A stretch of 64,000 nucleotides of DNA from Ferruginibacter sp. (lineage in GTDB: Bacteria > Bacteroidota > Bacteroidia > Chitinophagales > Chitinophagaceae): assembly GCA_025963635.1 (NCBI GenBank), contig JAOQAK010000075.1:181962-245961 (forward strand), read 5' to 3'. Each line of letters starts with the position of its first letter. Positions within the stretch are counted from its first letter, which is position 1. The notes under the pieces were generated by a model. The model searched no databases. It saw only the letters and a program-made list of their open reading frames with translations, and was not told the origin of the DNA. Positions 32,232 to 44,258 of this stretch are shown piece by piece. A program made the position numbers and the translations under genes.

Positions 32232-32735
32232 CTATAAAACGGCGTGTTTTCGTCGTATCAACCTGATATTTTTTACGGATTCTTTACGCATCAGGTGCAT
32301 GGGGACGGCAACTCCCATCGCCAGTGACATAATAATAAATACTGTTTTCACACCATTGTTCACCGTTTCAGAAAGCACCAGGTTGTAATCTGGCCCGATC
32401 ACCCCGGTTAATTTTATAAGTCCCAGCATGGTACGGTAAGCAAACACACCGGGTATCAGTGGTATCACCGAGGGAATAGCAAATATCATCGGCGGTGCAT
32501 GGCGAAAATGCGCAACAGGTATGCTGCAAATGCCCACTACCAAAGCTCCTGCAAAAGACGCGAAGACTACTCCCATGGCCAGTTGCAATAAACTGAATTT
32601 CAAAAAGCCCCCCATAGCGCCACCCACCCAAATCGCAAATAAGGTACGGGGCGGTACATTAAACAAAATGCCGAACCCAACTGCTCCCCAGCCGCACCAA
32701 AATGCTTTACTCAGAATAAGTATCCAATCCATCAT
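32232..32735 (-). CDS. Threonine/serine exporter family protein, small subunit (ThrE C-terminal/DUF3815-like)
   Basis: VGFGILFNVPPRTLFAIWVGGAMGGF; PSVIPLIPGVFAYRTMLGLIKL. Confidence 0.85.
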   Translation of the reverse strand: MMDWILILSKAFWCGWGAVGFGILFNVPPRTLFAIWVGGAMGGFLKFSLLQLAMGVVFASFAGALVVGICSIPVAHFRHAPPMIFAIPSVIPLIPGVFAYRTMLGLIKLTGVIGPDYNLVLSETVNNGVKTVFIIMSLAMGVAVPMHLMRKESVKNIRLIRRKHAVL

Positions 32736-32738
32736 TAA

Positions 32739-33512
32739 TTATTTCAGGTTATAAATAAGCATTGCGGATAATAATCCTAAGGCAATGGCAAGTGCAAACA
32801 TCAGTGCGTTTACTCCCCTTACTATACCATTTAAGATGTTACCGTCAATTAAATCGGTATAGCAATTGATCAATGGCACACCAGGTATCAGGAACAAAAC
32901 AGAGGTTGCAAAAGCATGTTCAAAATTGATGTTCAAACCGGCTTTTACAAATGCTCCTGCAAATAAGGAGGCAACCAATGAGCCCATGAAAACACAGATA
33001 TAAGGATTGAACTTTTTTTTGATGGCTTCCTGTCGCACAAACAAGCCAAAAACGGTAGCTCCAAAAGTGATCACCATTTCCAGCAATTTGCCGCCAAAGG
33101 TGAAGCAGAATGCAGAGCCTGCAAGACCCACGGCAAGCAGCACAATAACACGGGGATAATGTGGCAATGCAATCAACCTGTTCAGTTCATCCCTAAGCTC
33201 CTGCAGGGTTAAGTCTTTTTCACTGGCAACCCAGCTTAATCTGCTGATACCGGAAATGGTTTTAAAATTCACTCCCTGCCCCGGGGTGGTGCGGATTCCG
33301 TTAAATACCGGCAACTCGTCTTCATCGCTGAGCGCTAATGAAACTGATTTGGGAGCAATGGAAATATGAGGAAGATATCCGTACGTGGTGGCGAGCCTGC
33401 GCATTGTGATCCTGATGCGACTTACACTTGCACCGGAACTCAAAAGGTAAACACCAACGTCCAGTAAAATTGATCCAAATTCTTTCGCCTCATTATTTTT
33501 TTGTTGATTCAT
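32739..33512 (-). CDS. Threonine/serine exporter family protein, large subunit (ThrE N-terminal/DUF1212-like)
   Basis: LLSSGASVSRIRITMRRLATTYGY; LIPGVPLINCYTDLIDGNILNGIVRGVNAL. Confidence 0.88.
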   Translation of the reverse strand: MNQQKNNEAKEFGSILLDVGVYLLSSGASVSRIRITMRRLATTYGYLPHISIAPKSVSLALSDEDELPVFNGIRTTPGQGVNFKTISGISRLSWVASEKDLTLQELRDELNRLIALPHYPRVIVLLAVGLAGSAFCFTFGGKLLEMVITFGATVFGLFVRQEAIKKKFNPYICVFMGSLVASLFAGAFVKAGLNINFEHAFATSVLFLIPGVPLINCYTDLIDGNILNGIVRGVNALMFALAIALGLLSAMLIYNLK

Positions 33513-34058
33513 CCAATAAATTAAAATGAAGAATAATTCTTTGCAAAAGTACAGGTAAAAAACTCCGAAAGCCTTTTAAATTGTATAATTAATGTGTCAA
33601 AAGTACATTATTGCAGTGCACGCTTTTCAAACCCTGAAAACGGTCTCTTTTGCATTCTTTTCCGGGGATGCTCATGCATTTGGAAAGGATGTTGCCTGAT
33701 GCTTCAATTGATGTCTTTGATGCAAAATTCTGCTGAACACCGGCCTTTGATAAAACACACTCGCAAGGCCGTTGATTTCTGTATCTTTTTTAGATACAAA
33801 TGGACAAATCGTAAAAACCGGAAGAGCATCGCAACAAGAATTCTACCCGGTACCCGCAAACATGATATCACTCCAACTAAATCAAACCGCTGTATGGCAG
33901 GAACTTTCAAAATCTACTGGAAGCCGCTTCCCAAACCAATTCCGGGCGAAAAATTTGTCTCACATTCTTTAAATTTAAGAGGCGAATTTCTAACACATGT
34001 ATAATTTAATAGTTATATTGTGATAATAATTTTTTTGTCAATTTCTCAACTAGTTGCG

Positions 34059-37000
34059 ATGTCTAAGCCTCTCGAATTCCATAAACACATATTTATAATC
34101 GTTTTTATACTTGGGTTTTTTTGCAATCATTCAAGCGCACAAGACGATCCGTTCAAAATAACGGATTTCATCGTATTCGGTGGCAGGGGCCCCATCCCGG
34201 CGGGCACGTCGGTAACACAACCCGGAGCTCCTGGATTTGGAGTGCAAATTGGCGCAAACTCAAACATCTCCAATGGGGCAGTCGGGAGTTATACCCTGGT
34301 GAAAAGTACGGGAAATGCTAAGATCGGCGGAGGTATACATAGCGGTGGCACAATCGAACTTAACAATAGCAATTCGGTTAAAGGATGGATTACAGCAGCA
34401 AATTCAGCTAACCTGAACGGAGCAATTTTCCGGGCCGGATCAAACAGTTCCTTTGGAGCAAATATTGATGTAAGAGGGAACATCGTAGTTAGAGGAGGTA
34501 CACTTACAGGAAAGGTTACGCATCCATTCGGAACGGGTTATTCCGGACCATCACCATCAAGGGGCGAGTTTATCAAAGATCCCGCTATCCCAATGCTACC
34601 CACAATGCCAGTTATTGCAAATTTTGGCAGCAATATTTCAACCACTATTGCAACTTCCAAAACACTTAAACCTGGCACTTATGGCAATATTGCCTTAAGC
34701 GGAAATAGAGTGCTGACGCTGTCGGGAACTGGCATCTATATTTTTAAATCAATTAAAAACAGGGATTACAACCGGATTGTATTCGATTTCATGAATGATA
34801 AATCGGGCATGTTCAAAATTTATGTTGAAGAGGATGTAGCCTGGGGTAACGTAGATGCAAATGCGATAAACGGTGGCGATGCTTCGAGGATATATTTTGA
34901 AGTGCATGGAAGAGGGGCAACTTCACCGGATGGTACCGTGGCATTTAGCCTCGTTAACGGCTTTGGTGGAATTTCTACAAAATGGCTGGGCACTGTTTGG
35001 GCGCCTTTTGCCGCTATTAATATTACTTCAGCAATGGGTTCGGGCAAACTTACCGGTGCATTCTGGAGCGGCACCCAGGTGAAAATCCAGAACGGCCTTA
35101 CCCTAAATTTTGCACCTTTTCGATATGATACTTCTCCGGAATACATTTATCCTGACTATCCCCCACCACCCAATTACAAGTCGAATGCTATCATCGGACC
35201 GGAGTTATTTTCCCTTTGTCAGAATTATGCCAGCGGGATTGTTCCTTCCCCCTACATATACCACATCATCGGTCAAAGTGTATTGATTGAAATAATAGCA
35301 ACGGTAGGGCAATATCAAACCCTGCTGCAGAAACTGCAAAATGTTTATGGAATGACCGATTTTGTTGATAATGGCCCAAATACATTAATTATTACAGGTA
35401 AAATCCCTATTGCTAATCTATGTAAGTTAAATGATGATGCCACTATCAGGCCTTATATCAATCATTGCCGCCCACTTTTCCCGGCTATTGTGAGCAGTGG
35501 TGTAGCTTTAACCAACGGTGATATTGCAATGCATTCCGATCTTGTTCGAAATAGCTATAACCTGTCAGGATCCGGGATAAAAGTCGGTGTACTTTCAGAT
35601 GGTTACAACACCATACCAGGAGATCCGGCACACACAGATATTTTAAACGGTGATCTCCCCGGAACCGGCAATCCTGACCATCCGCTTCCGGTAGAAATAT
35701 TGAAAGAATACCCTTACGGAAGGGTTTCAGATGAAGGACGAGCTATGCTGCAGACCATACATGATGTAGCGCCAGGCTCTCCACTGGCCTTTAGAACAGG
35801 CTTTGTAAGTGAAGGAGATTTTGCTCAGGGAATTATCGAATTACAGGAGCATGGATGTAGAGTTATTGCAGATGATGTTACTTTTATTACTGCGCCATTT
35901 CTTAAAGACGGCATTGCTGCCAAAGCCGTTGATCTTGTAAAAAGTAAAGGAGTTTCCTATTTTTCGGCAGCGGGCAACTTTGGCAACAGATCTTACGAAA
36001 GCTTTTTTACGCCCACCTCGGCACCACCCGGCATAACCGGATCGGTCCATAACTTTGGTGGAGGCGATTTTCTTCAAAGTGATTCTTTGAAACCCGGAGT
36101 TTACACAATCGTACTGCAATGGGAAGATTCGATTTACTCGTTAGGACAGGGTGGTGCGTTGAACGATTTGGATATTTACCTTGCCGATGATGCCGGCAAC
36201 TTGCTTTTTGGTATGAACCGGTTTAACATCGGCAGTGACCCTATTGAAGTACTACCTTTTGTAGTAACAGCAAATACGAGAACCAATATTATGGTGGTAA
36301 GGGCATTTGGCAGTAAGAATGTAAGGTTTAAGTTTATAGTATTTCGCGGGGAATTGAAATTCAATGAATATATCACTGGAACATCCACATTGGTAGGACA
36401 GGCAAATGCTGAGGGTGCAATGGCGGTGGGTGCTATCCGTTACACCAACACACCTGCTTTTGGTGTTACAATCCCCCAGGTTGAAACCTTCTCCTCTGTA
36501 GGTGGAACCCCGGTTTATGGTGTAATAAGGAATAAGCCTGATTTTAGTGCCCCCGATGGCGGAAACAGCAGTGTGAATTTTGGCGCGCCAAACATTGACG
36601 GAGATTTATTCCCCAACTTCTTTGGAACTTCCGCCGCCGCTCCCCACGCTGCCGGTGTAGCCGCATTAGTTTTGGAAGGGAAAAAGACCTTTTACAACAA
36701 GGACCTGGAACCGGATTCCGTAAGAATACTATTGAGCCAAACATCCCTTGATGCAGCAACTCCGGGCTTTGATTACAGTTCGGGCTTTGGCTTAATACAG
36801 GCTGATTCAGCGGTTGGTACTTTTGCAGTGCCCACACCTCGTTTAACAGCATTGGTATTGCCCACCACACCATTGTTCGTGCCGGGAAAGGCTCCCTTCA
36901 TTCTTAAGATAGAAGGAAATTTTTTAAGGCCTACCTCGGTGATAACTTTCCGGGGAACTGCGCTTGCCACAACTGTACTAAGTGATACCGAGGCAATGGC

Positions 37001-38999
37001 TACCATCCCGGCCTTTGTCGGCAACCCCGCAATCCAGGTGTATACCGCCCCAATTTCCCCGAGCGGAAAAGACGGCGGATTTTCTAACTCGCTCTATTTC
37101 TTTTCGGTCACCAAAAAACAGATTTTGATAACCGCGGATAATAAAACCAAATTTTATGGTGAGAGGCTACCGCGGTTTACTTCTACTGTTCTTGTTGACG
37201 GTGTACCGCTGCAAAATTCAGGGCTATCGCTGGCAGATTTAAAATTAGATCCCATTGTATATGCTACCCCGGCAACCAGTGCCAGCAATGTTGGTATATT
37301 CTTTATCCGGCCCGGCTTCAAAAAGCTTAGCAGCGCAGATTCAGCAATATTTGAAATTTATGATTTTACTTTTGTGGATGGATTGCTTTCAATTAAAAAA
37401 ATGCCACTTATGGTAACCCCAAGGGATACCACGCTGGTGTATGGAGATAAGATAGCCGGGTTTACATTTATCTACAAATTTTATGGCGAATTAATTCCTC
37501 CGTCGGAAATAGCAATGTTCCTTGCCAATATAAAGAGTGCACACCAGGCAACGTTGGACAATAACGTGGTTGCCCTCGTGGACGCAAAAAGTTTATTGAA
37601 CGGAAGAGCCTTAACAGACGCAGATTTGAAGAATATGGGTGTAATGGCGAGTGCAAAATCACTTCTAAATGCGAGAAGTTTATTAAATGCAAAGTCGCTT
37701 CTGAATGGAACGGTGGTAATAGATACAACGAAAGTGGTTGACCTTGCCGTAGCATCAATTTTCAATTACCAGCTTGATTCATCCTCTGCGCCCCTGGTAA
37801 GCGCCAAATCACTCCTGAATGCACGTGGCATCATCAATGCCAAGTCGCTCCTTAATGGCACCGCTTTTGCAAATGCCAAAAGCCTTCTTAACGGAAGTCC
37901 CATATTAAACAGTAATACCGTGGGTGATACAAGTAACCAAAATGTAGTAGTGATCGTTGATGAAGATGATGTGCCGAACCCAACCAATATCTTAACATCA
38001 TTTAAATCCATTAACCTGGTTACCGGCATTACAGCAGGGGAATTTACCATCGTGCCCGGTGCTTTACTTTCCGAAAACTTTGAGGTAACCTACGGATTGG
38101 GCAAACTAACCATCCAACCTGCTTCATTAATTGTAAAAGGAAATGACCTCGTGATTTACCAGGGTGAGCCACTGCCGGCATTCACTTCTGCGATTACGGG
38201 ATTGAAAAATGGAGATCTTGGTTTATCAGGCCCGGTTTACCACCTCACTCCTTCGTATACGGGCGCGGCAGGGGTTTATTCAATCGTTCCGGCGGGCTTA
38301 CAACTGCAATTTAACGAAAGCTATTCAACACAGTATTTGCCTGGTACTTTGTATGCAAATCCAAAAGGGGGAAATGCAAAAGCGATTAAGCCATACCTGT
38401 TTTGTATAGACACTTTGATAAACGACCCATCCGGTTTCAAATACACTGCTAAATTCGCCTATAAAAATGATAACGCTACCGTGTTATTTATTCCAAGGGG
38501 AATAGATAATACCATCACTACATCGGGTTCATATAGTGGACTTCAGCCAGAGGTATTTCAGCCCGGGGGTGGTTTCTTTACTATTCGTTTTGATGGCTCA
38601 AATATAACCTGGACGGTGAAATCATACAATGGGAACCAAAAAATCGCCCTTTCGGGTTCGGCCAATGCTACCTACGAAAAATGCAGGAAAACTGCGCCGG
38701 CTGCAAGAACCAATACTGCTCCCGAAGCTATTACGCTCACGGAAACGGCAGACAGCAAACTCATGGCATATCCGAATCCATCAAAAGGTTGGGTTACCAT
38801 TTCTGTTGATAAAGGGCTGATATCGGAAAAAGATCTCGTTGTGGTAAATACTCCGGGCAAGTCATTTGTGCCAAAGCAGGTTAAAAGAATATCCAATAAC
38901 AGGCTGCAACTCGAGCTTTCAAATTTGTCGCCCGGCATGTATTTTATAAAAGTAAAAGTAGATAACGGGTATAAAATATTCCGCGCTGTTAAATTATAA
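34059..38999 (+). CDS. Multidomain T9SS-secreted protein: N-terminal bactofilin/ice-binding-like beta region, S8-like subtilase domain, MBG domains with KSLLN repeat block, type A sorting domain
   Basis: Signal peptide; IKVGVLSDGYN, DEGRAMLQTIHDVAPGS, FFGTSAAAPHAAGVAALVLEGK; MBG-like VTPRDTTLVYGDKI; C-terminal YPNPSKGWVTISV...LSPGMYFIKVKVDNGYKIFRAVKL. ATG at 34059 preferred over GTG at 34020. Confidence 0.88.
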   Translation: MSKPLEFHKHIFIIVFILGFFCNHSSAQDDPFKITDFIVFGGRGPIPAGTSVTQPGAPGFGVQIGANSNISNGAVGSYTLVKSTGNAKIGGGIHSGGTIELNNSNSVKGWITAANSANLNGAIFRAGSNSSFGANIDVRGNIVVRGGTLTGKVTHPFGTGYSGPSPSRGEFIKDPAIPMLPTMPVIANFGSNISTTIATSKTLKPGTYGNIALSGNRVLTLSGTGIYIFKSIKNRDYNRIVFDFMNDKSGMFKIYVEEDVAWGNVDANAINGGDASRIYFEVHGRGATSPDGTVAFSLVNGFGGISTKWLGTVWAPFAAINITSAMGSGKLTGAFWSGTQVKIQNGLTLNFAPFRYDTSPEYIYPDYPPPPNYKSNAIIGPELFSLCQNYASGIVPSPYIYHIIGQSVLIEIIATVGQYQTLLQKLQNVYGMTDFVDNGPNTLIITGKIPIANLCKLNDDATIRPYINHCRPLFPAIVSSGVALTNGDIAMHSDLVRNSYNLSGSGIKVGVLSDGYNTIPGDPAHTDILNGDLPGTGNPDHPLPVEILKEYPYGRVSDEGRAMLQTIHDVAPGSPLAFRTGFVSEGDFAQGIIELQEHGCRVIADDVTFITAPFLKDGIAAKAVDLVKSKGVSYFSAAGNFGNRSYESFFTPTSAPPGITGSVHNFGGGDFLQSDSLKPGVYTIVLQWEDSIYSLGQGGALNDLDIYLADDAGNLLFGMNRFNIGSDPIEVLPFVVTANTRTNIMVVRAFGSKNVRFKFIVFRGELKFNEYITGTSTLVGQANAEGAMAVGAIRYTNTPAFGVTIPQVETFSSVGGTPVYGVIRNKPDFSAPDGGNSSVNFGAPNIDGDLFPNFFGTSAAAPHAAGVAALVLEGKKTFYNKDLEPDSVRILLSQTSLDAATPGFDYSSGFGLIQADSAVGTFAVPTPRLTALVLPTTPLFVPGKAPFILKIEGNFLRPTSVITFRGTALATTVLSDTEAMATIPAFVGNPAIQVYTAPISPSGKDGGFSNSLYFFSVTKKQILITADNKTKFYGERLPRFTSTVLVDGVPLQNSGLSLADLKLDPIVYATPATSASNVGIFFIRPGFKKLSSADSAIFEIYDFTFVDGLLSIKKMPLMVTPRDTTLVYGDKIAGFTFIYKFYGELIPPSEIAMFLANIKSAHQATLDNNVVALVDAKSLLNGRALTDADLKNMGVMASAKSLLNARSLLNAKSLLNGTVVIDTTKVVDLAVASIFNYQLDSSSAPLVSAKSLLNARGIINAKSLLNGTAFANAKSLLNGSPILNSNTVGDTSNQNVVVIVDEDDVPNPTNILTSFKSINLVTGITAGEFTIVPGALLSENFEVTYGLGKLTIQPASLIVKGNDLVIYQGEPLPAFTSAITGLKNGDLGLSGPVYHLTPSYTGAAGVYSIVPAGLQLQFNESYSTQYLPGTLYANPKGGNAKAIKPYLFCIDTLINDPSGFKYTAKFAYKNDNATVLFIPRGIDNTITTSGSYSGLQPEVFQPGGGFFTIRFDGSNITWTVKSYNGNQKIALSGSANATYEKCRKTAPAARTNTAPEAITLTETADSKLMAYPNPSKGWVTISVDKGLISEKDLVVVNTPGKSFVPKQVKRISNNRLQLELSNLSPGMYFIKVKVDNGYKIFRAVKL
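37581..37912 (+). repeat. Protein-coding KSLLN peptide-repeat block
   Basis: Seven [KR]SLLN units (DAKSLLNG, SAKSLLNA, RSLLNA, KSLLNG, SAKSLLNA, NAKSLLNG, NAKSLLNG) plus RGIIN and SPILN variants. Confidence 0.95.
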
Positions 39000-39135: not shown

Positions 39136-41271
39136 ATGAAATGGAAAATAAAATTGCTGTATTTTTTTACTGTTTTTGTTTCCATTGTAAGTTTTGCCCA
39201 GGAGAATGCAACAGATAGCCTGCAAAGAGTGGTTGCAACCCATAACGATGACAGCCTGAAGGTAAACGCATTGATCAGCCTTGCCACTGCAGGGGCTCAA
39301 TCGGAACCACAAAAAGCCATAGAGTATGCAATAAAGGCGAAAGAACTGGCCACCAAAGTTGGGTACAAAAAGGGCCTTGGTTACGCATATAAATGGATGG
39401 GCATCATTAATAATTACAAGGGGAAATATTTTGAAGCGCTTGATTATTCCAATAAATCATTGAATGTATTTGAATCAATCGGAGATGAAGTGGGTATTTC
39501 AAACCTGCTGAATAACCTGGGTTATTTTTATGGCGATAAAGGGAAAGATCCAAAGGCGCTTGAATATTATCAGAAATCACTTCAGTTGGCCCGCAAACAT
39601 GGTAATAAGCTCAGGATAGCAACCGCCCTGCAAAATATAGGAGTCATCTATTTCAAAAATCCTGCTACTAATGAAAAGGCGTTGGAGTATTATCTCGAAG
39701 CCTTACCCCTCGCACTGGAAGTAAAGGACCAGGAATCAATTGGTACCATCAATACAAACATTGGTGAGGTTTATCTTGTGAAAAAAGATTTTGACAAGGC
39801 GCTCTTTTATTTTCAACAAGCAGAAAAAGTGTACGATGGCTCCCCAAGCGTGGCATATACTTACAATGATATCGGTAAATTGTACAGGCAAAAAAAAGAT
39901 TACACGTCCGCCCTCATTTATTACAACAAAGCTTACGAGATAGCAAACAAAATCAGTTCAACGCTTGATATGTGCCAATCCTTTATCGGTATTGCACAGG
40001 TATATATGGAACAAAACCTGGTAAAGGATGCATTGGCTGCTTATAAAAAAGCTTTGACACTGGCGCAGGAATTGAATGCAGTTCCGGAAATGAAGGAAAT
40101 CTATGAAGGCTTATCCACAGCATACGCAAAAACTGCCGATTACAAAAGCGCCTATTCTTCCCAAACCCTGCTTACAGCCTTGTACAATACGGAGAATGAC
40201 CAGAAGCTTAGCTTCAATACGGCAACATTTGAATACAACATTGAAATACAGAAACAGCTGGGTCAATATAACCTGCTGATGAAAGAAAAAGCTTTGCAAA
40301 AACTTGAGCTGGAAAAGGAAAAGTTTGCTAAAAACGCGTCCATTGCGGTATTAAGTACACTGATGGTCATCGCCCTCATCCTTTTAATAAATAACATGCA
40401 GCGAAAGAAATTAAATCGATTGCTGTATAAACAAAAAGGTGAAATCGAGGTCCAGAAGAGGAGCGTGGAAGAAGCGCTTGCAAATCTAAAAATTACCCAA
40501 TCACAACTAGTTCAATCGGAAAAAATGGCTTCACTTGGCGAACTCACCGCGGGTATTGCACATGAAATTCAAAACCCATTGAATTTTATAAATAATTTTT
40601 CTGATTTGAATACAGAACTGATTGAGGAGATGCTGGTGGAAATGAACAAGGGAAATACAGACGAGGTTAAAGGTATTGCAAGTAATATTTCAAACAATGA
40701 GCAAAAAATAAATCATCACGGTAAGCGGGCCGATTCCATTGTAAAAGGCATGCTACAACATTCAAGAACCAGCACGGGCAAAAAAGAGCCAACTGATATC
40801 AACGCATTGGCGGATGAATGTTTACGTTTAAGTTATCATGGCCTGCGATCAAAAGATAATTCTTTCAATGCCACGTTGCAAACAGACTTTGATGCATCTA
40901 TCGGCAAAGCAAATATTAACCCACAGGATGTAGGAAGAGTAATCCTTAATTTAGTCAGCAATGCATTTTATTCAGTATCGGATAAAAAGAAAAAACTCGG
41001 AGACAAGTACGAACCGATCGTTTCTGTCAGTACAAAAAAAGCAAAGGGCAAAATAGAAGTACACATAAAAGACAACGGCAACGGCATCCCGCAAAAAGTA
41101 TTGGACAAAATCTTCCAGCCATTCTTTACTACGAAACCAACGGGGCACGGAACAGGACTGGGTTTGTCACTGAGTTATGATATCGTTAAAGCACATGGCG
41201 GAGAAATAAATGTGGAAACAATAGAGGGTGAAGGTGTTGAATTTATAATAGTATTACCGGTAAGCGCTTAG
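39136..41271 (+). CDS. Sensor histidine kinase with N-terminal TPR repeats
   Basis: Signal peptide, many TPR units (ALEYYQKSLQLARKHGNKLRIATALQNIGVIY), TM segment, MASLGELTAGIAHEIQNPLNFINNFS, DNGNGIPQKVLDKIFQPFFTTKPTGHGTGLGLS. Confidence 0.94.
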   Translation: MKWKIKLLYFFTVFVSIVSFAQENATDSLQRVVATHNDDSLKVNALISLATAGAQSEPQKAIEYAIKAKELATKVGYKKGLGYAYKWMGIINNYKGKYFEALDYSNKSLNVFESIGDEVGISNLLNNLGYFYGDKGKDPKALEYYQKSLQLARKHGNKLRIATALQNIGVIYFKNPATNEKALEYYLEALPLALEVKDQESIGTINTNIGEVYLVKKDFDKALFYFQQAEKVYDGSPSVAYTYNDIGKLYRQKKDYTSALIYYNKAYEIANKISSTLDMCQSFIGIAQVYMEQNLVKDALAAYKKALTLAQELNAVPEMKEIYEGLSTAYAKTADYKSAYSSQTLLTALYNTENDQKLSFNTATFEYNIEIQKQLGQYNLLMKEKALQKLELEKEKFAKNASIAVLSTLMVIALILLINNMQRKKLNRLLYKQKGEIEVQKRSVEEALANLKITQSQLVQSEKMASLGELTAGIAHEIQNPLNFINNFSDLNTELIEEMLVEMNKGNTDEVKGIASNISNNEQKINHHGKRADSIVKGMLQHSRTSTGKKEPTDINALADECLRLSYHGLRSKDNSFNATLQTDFDASIGKANINPQDVGRVILNLVSNAFYSVSDKKKKLGDKYEPIVSVSTKKAKGKIEVHIKDNGNGIPQKVLDKIFQPFFTTKPTGHGTGLGLSLSYDIVKAHGGEINVETIEGEGVEFIIVLPVSA

Positions 41272-41482: not shown

Positions 41483-42826
41483 ATGTATTTAGAAATCGTA
41501 TTAGCCTTTTTCATTTTCCGATATCTTCGTAAATCCCTGCCTGCTGATGCATTACTTCAATGGGATAAAATTTTCGTAGGCGGCATGGCACTTTCTGCTG
41601 CGCTCGTGGTAATGGGAGTGATGCTGCGTGACAATACACAAATCACAAAGTGGTTTACACATGCGATGTTATTGGGGCTGATTTACCTTGTATTTAAACA
41701 AAAGGAATTGGCACCGGCAAAACAACTGATGTATTCCATATTACCTTATATCGCATTATCGGTTTTGAAAGACCTGGTTCTGCTAATCAGTCCTGCTTTT
41801 TCCCGTGATATGAACGACTATTTTGAAACCGCCACTCTGTTTGCTATTATCTGGATGATTGCCATGTGGATGATTACAAGAAAACAAAAAAAGGCACTTG
41901 AAAAAGAAAAGGCTAAAACGCTGGAAATTGAAAAAGAAAGCAGGATTATCGAATCATTAAAGGCAGCATTGGAAGTACAGGTGGCAGAACGTACTGCTGC
42001 GCTTACCCAACAGAAAGAAACATTGCAGCAAGCTCTTGATGAATTGAAAGCCACGCAGGCACAATTAATTCAGTCGGAAAAAATGGCTTCATTGGGCGAA
42101 CTTACGGCGGGCATTGCCCATGAAATTCAGAATCCTTTGAATTTCGTCAATAATTTTTCTGAGATCAATACAGAATTGATCGATGAGATGCAACAGGAAA
42201 TGGACAAAGGAAACCTGGAAGATGCCAAAGCAATTGGAAACGATATCAGGGACAATGAACAAAAAATAAATCATCATGGCAAACGTGCCGACGCAATCGT
42301 TAAAGGTATGTTGCAACATAGCCGGAGTAGCACCGGGATAAAAGAAGCAACCAATATTAACAATCTCGCAGATGAATACCTTCGGTTAGCTTACCATGGA
42401 TTAAGAGCAAAGGATAAATCGTTCAATGCATCCATGAAAACTGATTATGATGAAAGTGTTGGAACCATCCAGGTAATTCCCCAGGATATTGGCCGCGTAA
42501 TTCTTAACTTGATTACCAATGCTTTTTATGCTGTGGCGGAAAAGAAAAAAATGCTTGGCGATGGGTATGACCCAACCGTTTGTGTGAGTACAAAAAAGCT
42601 GGCAGAGAAGGTAATGATTGCTGTGAAAGATAATGGCAACGGCATTCCGCAAAAAGTATTGGATAAAATTTTTCAACCATTTTTTACTACCAAGCCCACA
42701 GGGCAGGGCACTGGGTTAGGATTGAGTATGAGTTATGATATTGTTAACAAGGTGCATGGTGGCGAAATAATTGTAGACACGGAGGAAGGGGAATGCACCA
42801 CCTTCACTATTTATTTACCTGTATAA
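41483..42826 (+). CDS. Sensor histidine kinase (membrane N-terminus, coiled coil), tandem paralogue of the preceding kinase
   Basis: MASLGELTAGIAHEIQNPLNFVNNFS and GTGLGLSMSYDIVNKVHGGE. Confidence 0.94.
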   Translation: MYLEIVLAFFIFRYLRKSLPADALLQWDKIFVGGMALSAALVVMGVMLRDNTQITKWFTHAMLLGLIYLVFKQKELAPAKQLMYSILPYIALSVLKDLVLLISPAFSRDMNDYFETATLFAIIWMIAMWMITRKQKKALEKEKAKTLEIEKESRIIESLKAALEVQVAERTAALTQQKETLQQALDELKATQAQLIQSEKMASLGELTAGIAHEIQNPLNFVNNFSEINTELIDEMQQEMDKGNLEDAKAIGNDIRDNEQKINHHGKRADAIVKGMLQHSRSSTGIKEATNINNLADEYLRLAYHGLRAKDKSFNASMKTDYDESVGTIQVIPQDIGRVILNLITNAFYAVAEKKKMLGDGYDPTVCVSTKKLAEKVMIAVKDNGNGIPQKVLDKIFQPFFTTKPTGQGTGLGLSMSYDIVNKVHGGEIIVDTEEGECTTFTIYLPV

Positions 42827-42843: not shown

Positions 42844-43218
42844 ATGAAAATCCTGGTAGTTGATGATGAAACAGATATTCAAACATTGTTTGAGCAGCGC
42901 TTCCGGAAAGAGATCCGGCAAAAACTGGTCGAATTTGTTTTTGCCTTTTCCGGAGAAGATGCACTGAATTATCTTAACCATCATGAACATGAAGTGGTAT
43001 TGATATTGTCTGATATCAATATGCCCGGAATGAGTGGGATTGAGTTGTTGAGACAGATAAAACAAAAACACCTTACACCTCCCCCGGTGGTGATGATGAT
43101 CACTGCTTATGGAGATGCAGAAAACTTTAACATGGCCAAACAATTGGGGGCGGATGATTTTTTAACCAAACCGGTGGATTTTAATTTATTAAAAGAAAAA
43201 CTAAAATTAGTTAGCTGA
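42844..43218 (+). CDS. Stand-alone receiver-domain response regulator
   Basis: MKILVVDDETDIQ...LILSDINMPGMSGIELL...TKPVD; start set at 42844. Confidence 0.92.
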   Translation: MKILVVDDETDIQTLFEQRFRKEIRQKLVEFVFAFSGEDALNYLNHHEHEVVLILSDINMPGMSGIELLRQIKQKHLTPPPVVMMITAYGDAENFNMAKQLGADDFLTKPVDFNLLKEKLKLVS

Positions 43219-44258
43219 TGGCAAAAATATTAGTGGCTGATGACGAAGCGGACCTGGAAACGCTTATTAAACAAAAGTTTCGCCAAAAAATAAGGGATCA
43301 GCAATATGAATTCCTTTTTGCTGCGGACGGCAATGAAGCATTGAATAAAATTCAGCAACACCCCGACGTAGATATCGTACTGAGCGACATCAATATGCCC
43401 GGAATGGACGGGCTAACGCTGCTTAGCAGGCTGAGCGAAACCAGTCCGCTAATCAAGTCAGTTATTATTTCCGCCTATGGCGATATGGGTAATATTCGTA
43501 CAGCCATGAACCGTGGCGCTTTTGATTTCATCACCAAGCCGATCAATTTTGAAGACCTTTCACTAACGATGGAAAAAACCATCCGGCAGGTTAACCAGGT
43601 ACGTGAAACCCTCAAGGCCATCAAGGAAAACAATATTCTTAAAATGTATGTGGATCAAACCGTGCTGAATTTTATGGGCAGCCAGGAATTTGAATCTTCC
43701 CTGGTGAAGAATGAAGTGGTGGAAGCCACCGTTGTTTTCATCGATATCTGTTGCTTTACTTCCATCAGCGAAAAAGAATCTCCGGATACCGTCGTAAAGT
43801 TATTAAATAATTATTTCGATGTGATGGTGAAAGAAATTATTGCGCAGGGAGGTTATATAGATAAGTTTATCGGTGACGCGGTGATGGCAGTTTTTCGTGG
43901 CAATTACCATCTCGACCGGGCAATTGATGCAAGCCTCGCCGTTAGAAATAAGATAAGAGAACTGCCATCGCTTTACCAGGATGTCTCGTTTACCCCGCAG
44001 GTTTCCATCGGTATCAACAGCGGTGAAATGATATCAGGAAACATTGGTTCTGTTAACCTCCGCCGCCTCGATTATACGGTTGTAGGCGACGTGGTGAACA
44101 CTGCCCAGCGTTTACAATCGGTTGCCGGTGAAAGCCAGGTAGTAATCAATCAAACAGCCTATGACAAGGTTAAAGAGTCGTTCAGTTGCCGCAAACTGGG
44201 TGAGGTAGTGCTCAAGAATAAAACCAACCCCATGAGTATTTATGAAGTGATGGATTGA
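43218..44258 (+). CDS. Response regulator with class III nucleotide cyclase output domain
   Basis: Receiver KILVADDEADLETLI...VLSDINMPGMDG...TKPIN; cyclase VVFIDICCFTSISE, GGYIDKFIGDAVMAVF, LDYTVVGDVVNTAQRL. Overlaps the previous stop by 1 nt (TGATG). Confidence 0.94.
   Translation: MAKILVADDEADLETLIKQKFRQKIRDQQYEFLFAADGNEALNKIQQHPDVDIVLSDINMPGMDGLTLLSRLSETSPLIKSVIISAYGDMGNIRTAMNRGAFDFITKPINFEDLSLTMEKTIRQVNQVRETLKAIKENNILKMYVDQTVLNFMGSQEFESSLVKNEVVEATVVFIDICCFTSISEKESPDTVVKLLNNYFDVMVKEIIAQGGYIDKFIGDAVMAVFRGNYHLDRAIDASLAVRNKIRELPSLYQDVSFTPQVSIGINSGEMISGNIGSVNLRRLDYTVVGDVVNTAQRLQSVAGESQVVINQTAYDKVKESFSCRKLGEVVLKNKTNPMSIYEVMD

Follow-up and report, generated by a model that had tools for sequence, protein, structure and literature searches.

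In the Bacillota, the RRNPPA systems (Rap-Phr, PlcR-PapR, arbitrium) are encoded by a TPR receptor gene that adjoins the gene for a secreted precursor, with hexapeptides being common (PMC11343458, PMC10075063). These Bacillota receptors take hexapeptide pheromones as ligands, of which certain propeptides contain one to four identical or similar copies, and extracellular proteases process them (PMC11343458). Here we describe a gene pair in a window of 64,000 nucleotides from Ferruginibacter sp. (the whole stretch of DNA analysed), in which a gene for a large protein with an array of repeated short peptide words is directly followed by a TPR receptor gene. This neighbour, and the replacement of the word as a set in each lineage, were both missed in an earlier reading of the sequence (the first-pass annotation). 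Our results suggest that the array and the neighbouring receptor form an undescribed signalling pair; in the open-access literature searched, we found no paper on an array-TPR receptor pair and no description of peptide signalling in the host's large environmental Bacteroidota family.

The array-bearing protein is a T9SS subtilase-like protein encoded on the forward strand at positions 34059..38999, with the ATG at 34059 as the likely start in a frame that is open from a GTG at 34020. A split ThrE-type threonine/serine exporter is found upstream on the opposite strand (32232-33512). Profile matches, all on the forward strand, bear out the earlier proposal of an exported T9SS subtilase-like protein with MBG domains: the C-terminal half of Peptidase_S8 (36279..36791; Pfam PF00082, 2.1e-14), a first MBG_2 domain (PF18676, 9.1e-15 protein-wide with the strongest stretch at 37128..37388; 55.5 bits, cutoff 25), and a T9SS type A C-terminal sorting domain (38769..38975; PF18962, 7.6e-12; TIGR04183, 1.3e-08). 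Together with the sorting domain, the N-terminus, which is hydrophobic as judged from its sequence, gives the protein the features of T9SS type A cargo. The array was previously placed between MBG segments; the MBG context stands, but the array interrupts a second MBG-like domain (37398..38114, forward strand, recognised by alignment only), into which the alignments show it inserted between ...TLVYGDK and ...TIVPGALLSENFEVTYGLGKLTI. The protein thus shares its carrier domain and sorting signal with MBG_2 T9SS proteins (PF18676, TIGR04183), whose models include no word array.

With Peptidase S8 subtilases (PF00082) the protein shares the C-terminal-half match and the Ser motif GTSAAAP, retained as FFGTSAAAPH, but it is set apart by the motif SDEGRAML, which has a glutamate at the position of the catalytic His of subtilisins. 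The Asp, His, Ser triad of an active Peptidase S8 is hence incomplete, and the same glutamate is found in all 58 homologs in which the motif was found. It is possible, judging from these motifs, that the domain is a pseudoprotease or has an altered catalytic residue, and because the His to Glu change is so general, self-processing of the subtilase should not be assumed.

The repeat unit is a strict six residues, [AG]-[KR]-S-L-L-N. Seven [KR]SLLN words start at 37587, 37656, 37674, 37692, 37806, 37842 and 37878 (span 37587-37892), and variant words are found at 37824 (RGIIN) and 37896 (SPILN). Both blocks of the array are on the forward strand: block 1 (37584..37709) holds KSLLN at 37587, 37656 and 37692 and RSLLN at 37674, and block 2 (37803..37910) is a run of six hexapeptides (KSLLN, RGIIN, KSLLN, TAFAN, KSLLN, SPILN), so that degenerate hexapeptides (RGIIN, GTAFAN, GSPILN) are interspersed among the words. 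Six exact copies of AKSLLN in one stretch are far beyond chance, with none elsewhere in the open reading frame or in nearby ones; a search for the word in the same frame and nearby genes returned none in the former and two single-copy chance matches in short open reading frames. We found no second multicopy protein of this kind in the window's genome, nor in genomes G115 and G197.

All seven codon spellings of [KR]SLLN are as quoted in the first-pass annotation. Synonymous codon identity between units is 0.28, versus 0.32 if codons are drawn independently according to the usage of the gene, indicating that the units are saturated, and certain unit pairs are identical in DNA. We considered whether the units of this gene owe their identity to a recent tandem duplication and ruled this out, since the codons are random. 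When the window is compared with another array gene (L015), the serine codon families agree at 5/6 units, an outcome that by a hand count would arise from random pairing one time in five.

The array block is a family. A first search of 99 genomes of the host order returned it in 12, mostly with differing words, although one of these matches (G046) is weak, of low complexity and not a homolog; genomes G060 and G068 extend the block to two further families of the order. In the host family, a profile search of 399 sampled genomes gave 49 matches, one of which (G469) was found on inspection to lack an array, leaving 48. A scan of named genomes yielded 23 loci, all in Bacteroidota and many labelled Chitinophagaceae, and the words of Ilyomonas limi and Ginsengibacter hankyongi are KSIIN and KAIVA. 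Confinement of the block to one genome, which had been named as fatal to the idea of a conserved motif, is therefore not what we see; it is the exact KSLLN word that is found only here.

Each array protein has its own word. Those seen include RALSN, RALVN, RPLVN, KVVTN, HAIVN, KSVVN, TRGLVN, RQAVN, KQAVN, KRSVN, NPAYL/NPAYLV, GYALVN, LRGIVS, SKAVAN, NGQTLTLS, NGVPVAIV, NGTLVQMV, NEEAII and NGGVTRA, and the highest copy number is reached by EAIIN, with 25 copies in one protein (L084). Where complete, the carrier open frames range from about 1500 to over 5000 amino acids. In four loci (L037, L069, L075, L089), eight-residue words of the form NGQL[KRQ]ALV extend across hundreds of residues and are separated by irregular spacers; L069 and L089 are two array genes of one genome (G403) with similar words and a receptor beside only one of them. 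Another array gene (L072) is apparently frame-broken, its MBG and sorting-signal tail lying downstream in another frame.

Comparison of 21 aligned proteins showed that word units are 80% identical within a protein, versus 35% at the equivalent unit between proteins. On a tree of the flanks, the same change is found in at least three units on one branch in 34 events, against 3.5 expected from random placement, and multi-unit events account for 143 of the 239 inferred changes. Units that agree in amino acids while their codons diverge are also a property of polyubiquitin and of multicopy peptide precursors; in the present arrays the word additionally changes as a set between species.

At the DNA level the codons are random in most arrays, with a median excess identity of 0.06 and |z|<2 in 45 of the 63 arrays (a set in which two locus pairs represent one gene each); GYALVN, for example, is present in 16 exact copies with 16 DNA spellings, and NGQTLTLS in 18 exact copies with 18 spellings. 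Recent DNA similarity, with z above 3, is seen in 10/63 arrays (L034, L035, L020 and L037 among them), and DNA homogenisation of the arrays therefore happens sometimes. Selection against DNA identity, which had been considered, is not borne out by these figures, but the view of old repeats kept by amino-acid-level selection is supported: in a close pair (L112/L113) with ten units, 60/60 residues are identical and only 29/60 codons. A second close pair (L105/L108) keeps its word in 7/7 units, with codon identity of 0.67 at orthologous units versus 0.37 across units, although codon retention at orthologous units is mostly uninformative, as synonymous sites in the flanks are themselves almost saturated.

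Fixed variant units (GTAxVN, GSPILN) outlast word changes, and as far as the aligned sequences go this argues for a change of the word in place, point by point, with synonymous sites saturated in most pairs that differ in word. One pair of loci (L130/L131), from closely related species, has words that differ at one position, NGSLLKVV or SGSLLKVV. Its MBG-array domain (residues ~1350-1850) is about 75% identical in amino acids and its flanks over 90%, which looks like a swap of the array domain by recombination, with the remaining gene and the receptor almost identical.

An all-against-all comparison of neighbouring genes revealed one gene family at nearly all array loci. The TPR receptor gene lies beside the array gene, a candidate for a precursor gene of the RRNPPA kind: it is the next same-strand gene downstream in 62 of the 68 loci whose downstream sequence is 700 bp or longer, at a median gap of 50 bp to its open frame. 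Another gene intervenes at one locus (L093), two loci (L026, L034) have no receptor despite 2.7 and 6.4 kb downstream, and L089, the second array gene of its genome, is without a receptor of its own. Other genes near the array gene at 52 loci (L017 155-4052 and equivalents) encode MFS-like transporters (22), cNMP-binding proteins (16) and HD-domain proteins (13).

The receptors consist of a signal peptide, about 370 TPR residues, one membrane helix and then an output domain, which is a class III nucleotidyl cyclase in 51 (counting one truncated receptor, L016, put among the cyclases on weak evidence) and a histidine kinase in nine, the window included; whichever output is present, the TPR part is kept, as is its pairing with the array. 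In the window the receptor is encoded at 39136..41271 on the forward strand and has a signal peptide, periplasmic TPR (TPR_12, 5.2e-42), one TM helix, HisKA and HATPase_c (6.9e-22). It is followed on the same strand by a second histidine kinase (41483..42826), possibly part of the output, and by a response regulator that carries a fused class III nucleotidyl cyclase (43218..44258; Response_reg 2.4e-24, Guanylate_cyc 3.6e-23). The cyclase output, fused to the receptor in most relatives, may here have been split off from it.

Array and receptor co-occur at nearly 1:1. Among the 399 host-family genomes the receptor is present in 47/49 array genomes versus 3/350 others (Fisher p 6e-55), given a TPR profile that was built from array-linked receptors and whose scores are bimodal (above 330 bits in 50 genomes, or below 240), the 330-bit cut having been picked after the gap was seen. 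Contig ends, or a match that is no array, account for four of the five genomes that are discordant: the contig ends at the array gene in G222, an array-domain tail lies at a contig end in G294, G258 is likewise at a contig end, and G469 has no array. In the fifth (G304) the receptor's neighbour is a different MBG protein, truncated where the contig ends. The window's receptor is the sole close relative of its kind in its own genome (single match, G000), and a search with its TPR domain in five array genomes gave a single match each, within the array's neighbourhood.

Word distance correlates with TPR distance when subtilase and MBG-flank distances are controlled (partial Mantel r 0.30, p 0.001, 53 loci), a modest correlation from a type of test that can be anticonservative. 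With cyclase distance as an added control, r is 0.31 over 42 loci and 0.28 over the 29 loci with short words (p 0.001 each), and reciprocal controls with subtilase, MBG flank and cyclase reach r of at most 0.14, weak or not significant. The signal is spread across the TPR with no single part prominent, and word-TPR charge complementarity showed nothing beyond controls. The receptors of L130/L131 are almost identical despite the one-position difference between their words, indicating that this position is read not strictly, or not at all.

We propose, at about even chances, that the array repeats, word by word, a ligand of the TPR receptor encoded by the next gene. The subtilase-like carrier would be exported through the T9SS and its words displayed, or freed by proteolysis; the neighbouring receptor would bind a word by its periplasmic TPR domain and, through its one membrane helix, would control its output domain, usually a class III nucleotidyl cyclase but a histidine kinase in the window. 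A single TPR groove serving every copy would hold all copies identical, and a drift of this groove would lead all copies to change jointly while synonymous codons scramble freely. A dedicated TPR receptor beside a carrier with many copies of one word is best accounted for by repeated ligands, since a single binding site would constrain all copies to one sequence and make them shift jointly. The cNMP-binding proteins close to the array gene in 16 of 52 loci also count in favour of this reading. Against this, the array lies outside while the TPR is periplasmic, and the His to Glu change, possibly marking an inactive serine protease, makes release of the word uncertain. The further step to a Bacteroidota peptide-pheromone system, in which a multicopy precursor would release species-specific words to a periplasmic TPR receptor with cyclic nucleotide output, we hold to be rather doubtful.

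By analogy, the pair may work like the TPR-peptide class of Bacillota, with putative binding in the TPR groove. The RRNPPA receptor is cytoplasmic, whereas the array-linked receptor has a signal peptide, periplasmic TPR, a TM helix and a cyclase or kinase; the RRNPPA precursor is a short propeptide, whereas the carrier described here is a large T9SS-exported protein whose MBG insert holds as many as 25 copies of the word; and the former are found in Bacillota, the latter in Bacteroidota. As the receptor is not cytoplasmic and the carrier is no short propeptide, we do not file the pair under RRNPPA.

The main rival, which we consider unlikely though deserving of attention, is a homotypic structural module, whose words would be short beta strands stacking as a solenoid or as an intermolecular adhesive sheet. 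As like would stack on like, units would change jointly, and the receptor would merely report the state of the surface protein. The words are indeed prone to beta structure, with turns at NG, NA or NS, the length of the unit mostly stays the same within a protein and ranges from 6 to 8 between proteins, and Asn is swapped as a set for Ser, Ala or Gln, as ladder positions would be. Such a module predicts neither the receptor partnership nor the word-TPR correlation, and it sits poorly with runs of sometimes only three units and with variant units (GTAFAN, GSPILN) tolerated at fixed places. AlphaFold2 confidence is low for the array in two members; this also counts against the module, while the prediction, a check proposed in the first-pass annotation, is too poor to judge the structure. 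A PDB fold search gave no useful match (best E 0.007, TM below 0.2). For the self-association or processing-site role once suggested for the KSLLN units we have no positive evidence.

Another rival is ordinary concerted evolution, in which duplication and gene conversion would keep the units of a structural repeat alike and their codons would diverge afterwards. This would fit the 10/63 arrays that are more DNA-alike than chance and the identical DNA of some unit pairs. We think it improbable, given the random codons of the 45 arrays, the position-specific variant units that outlive word changes, and the orthologous codons retained in L105/L108. Just as improbable, in our estimate, is an export sensor, in which the periplasmic TPR would bind the array of the unexported protein and report T9SS traffic, the words being a handle rather than an intercellular signal. 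T9SS cargo does cross the periplasm, the expected location of the TPR, and the array-receptor pairing is dedicated, but the strong difference in words between species is left unexplained.

The repeated-ligand reading, if true, would give a large environmental Bacteroidota family a dedicated ligand-receptor pair, and sequence alone would let one read both partners, along with dozens of natural variants of ligand and receptor. The array is a clear natural case in which many units change in concert while the DNA drifts freely, and it makes the cause of concerted amino-acid evolution testable. Should the pheromone reading also be true, each species would have its own password.
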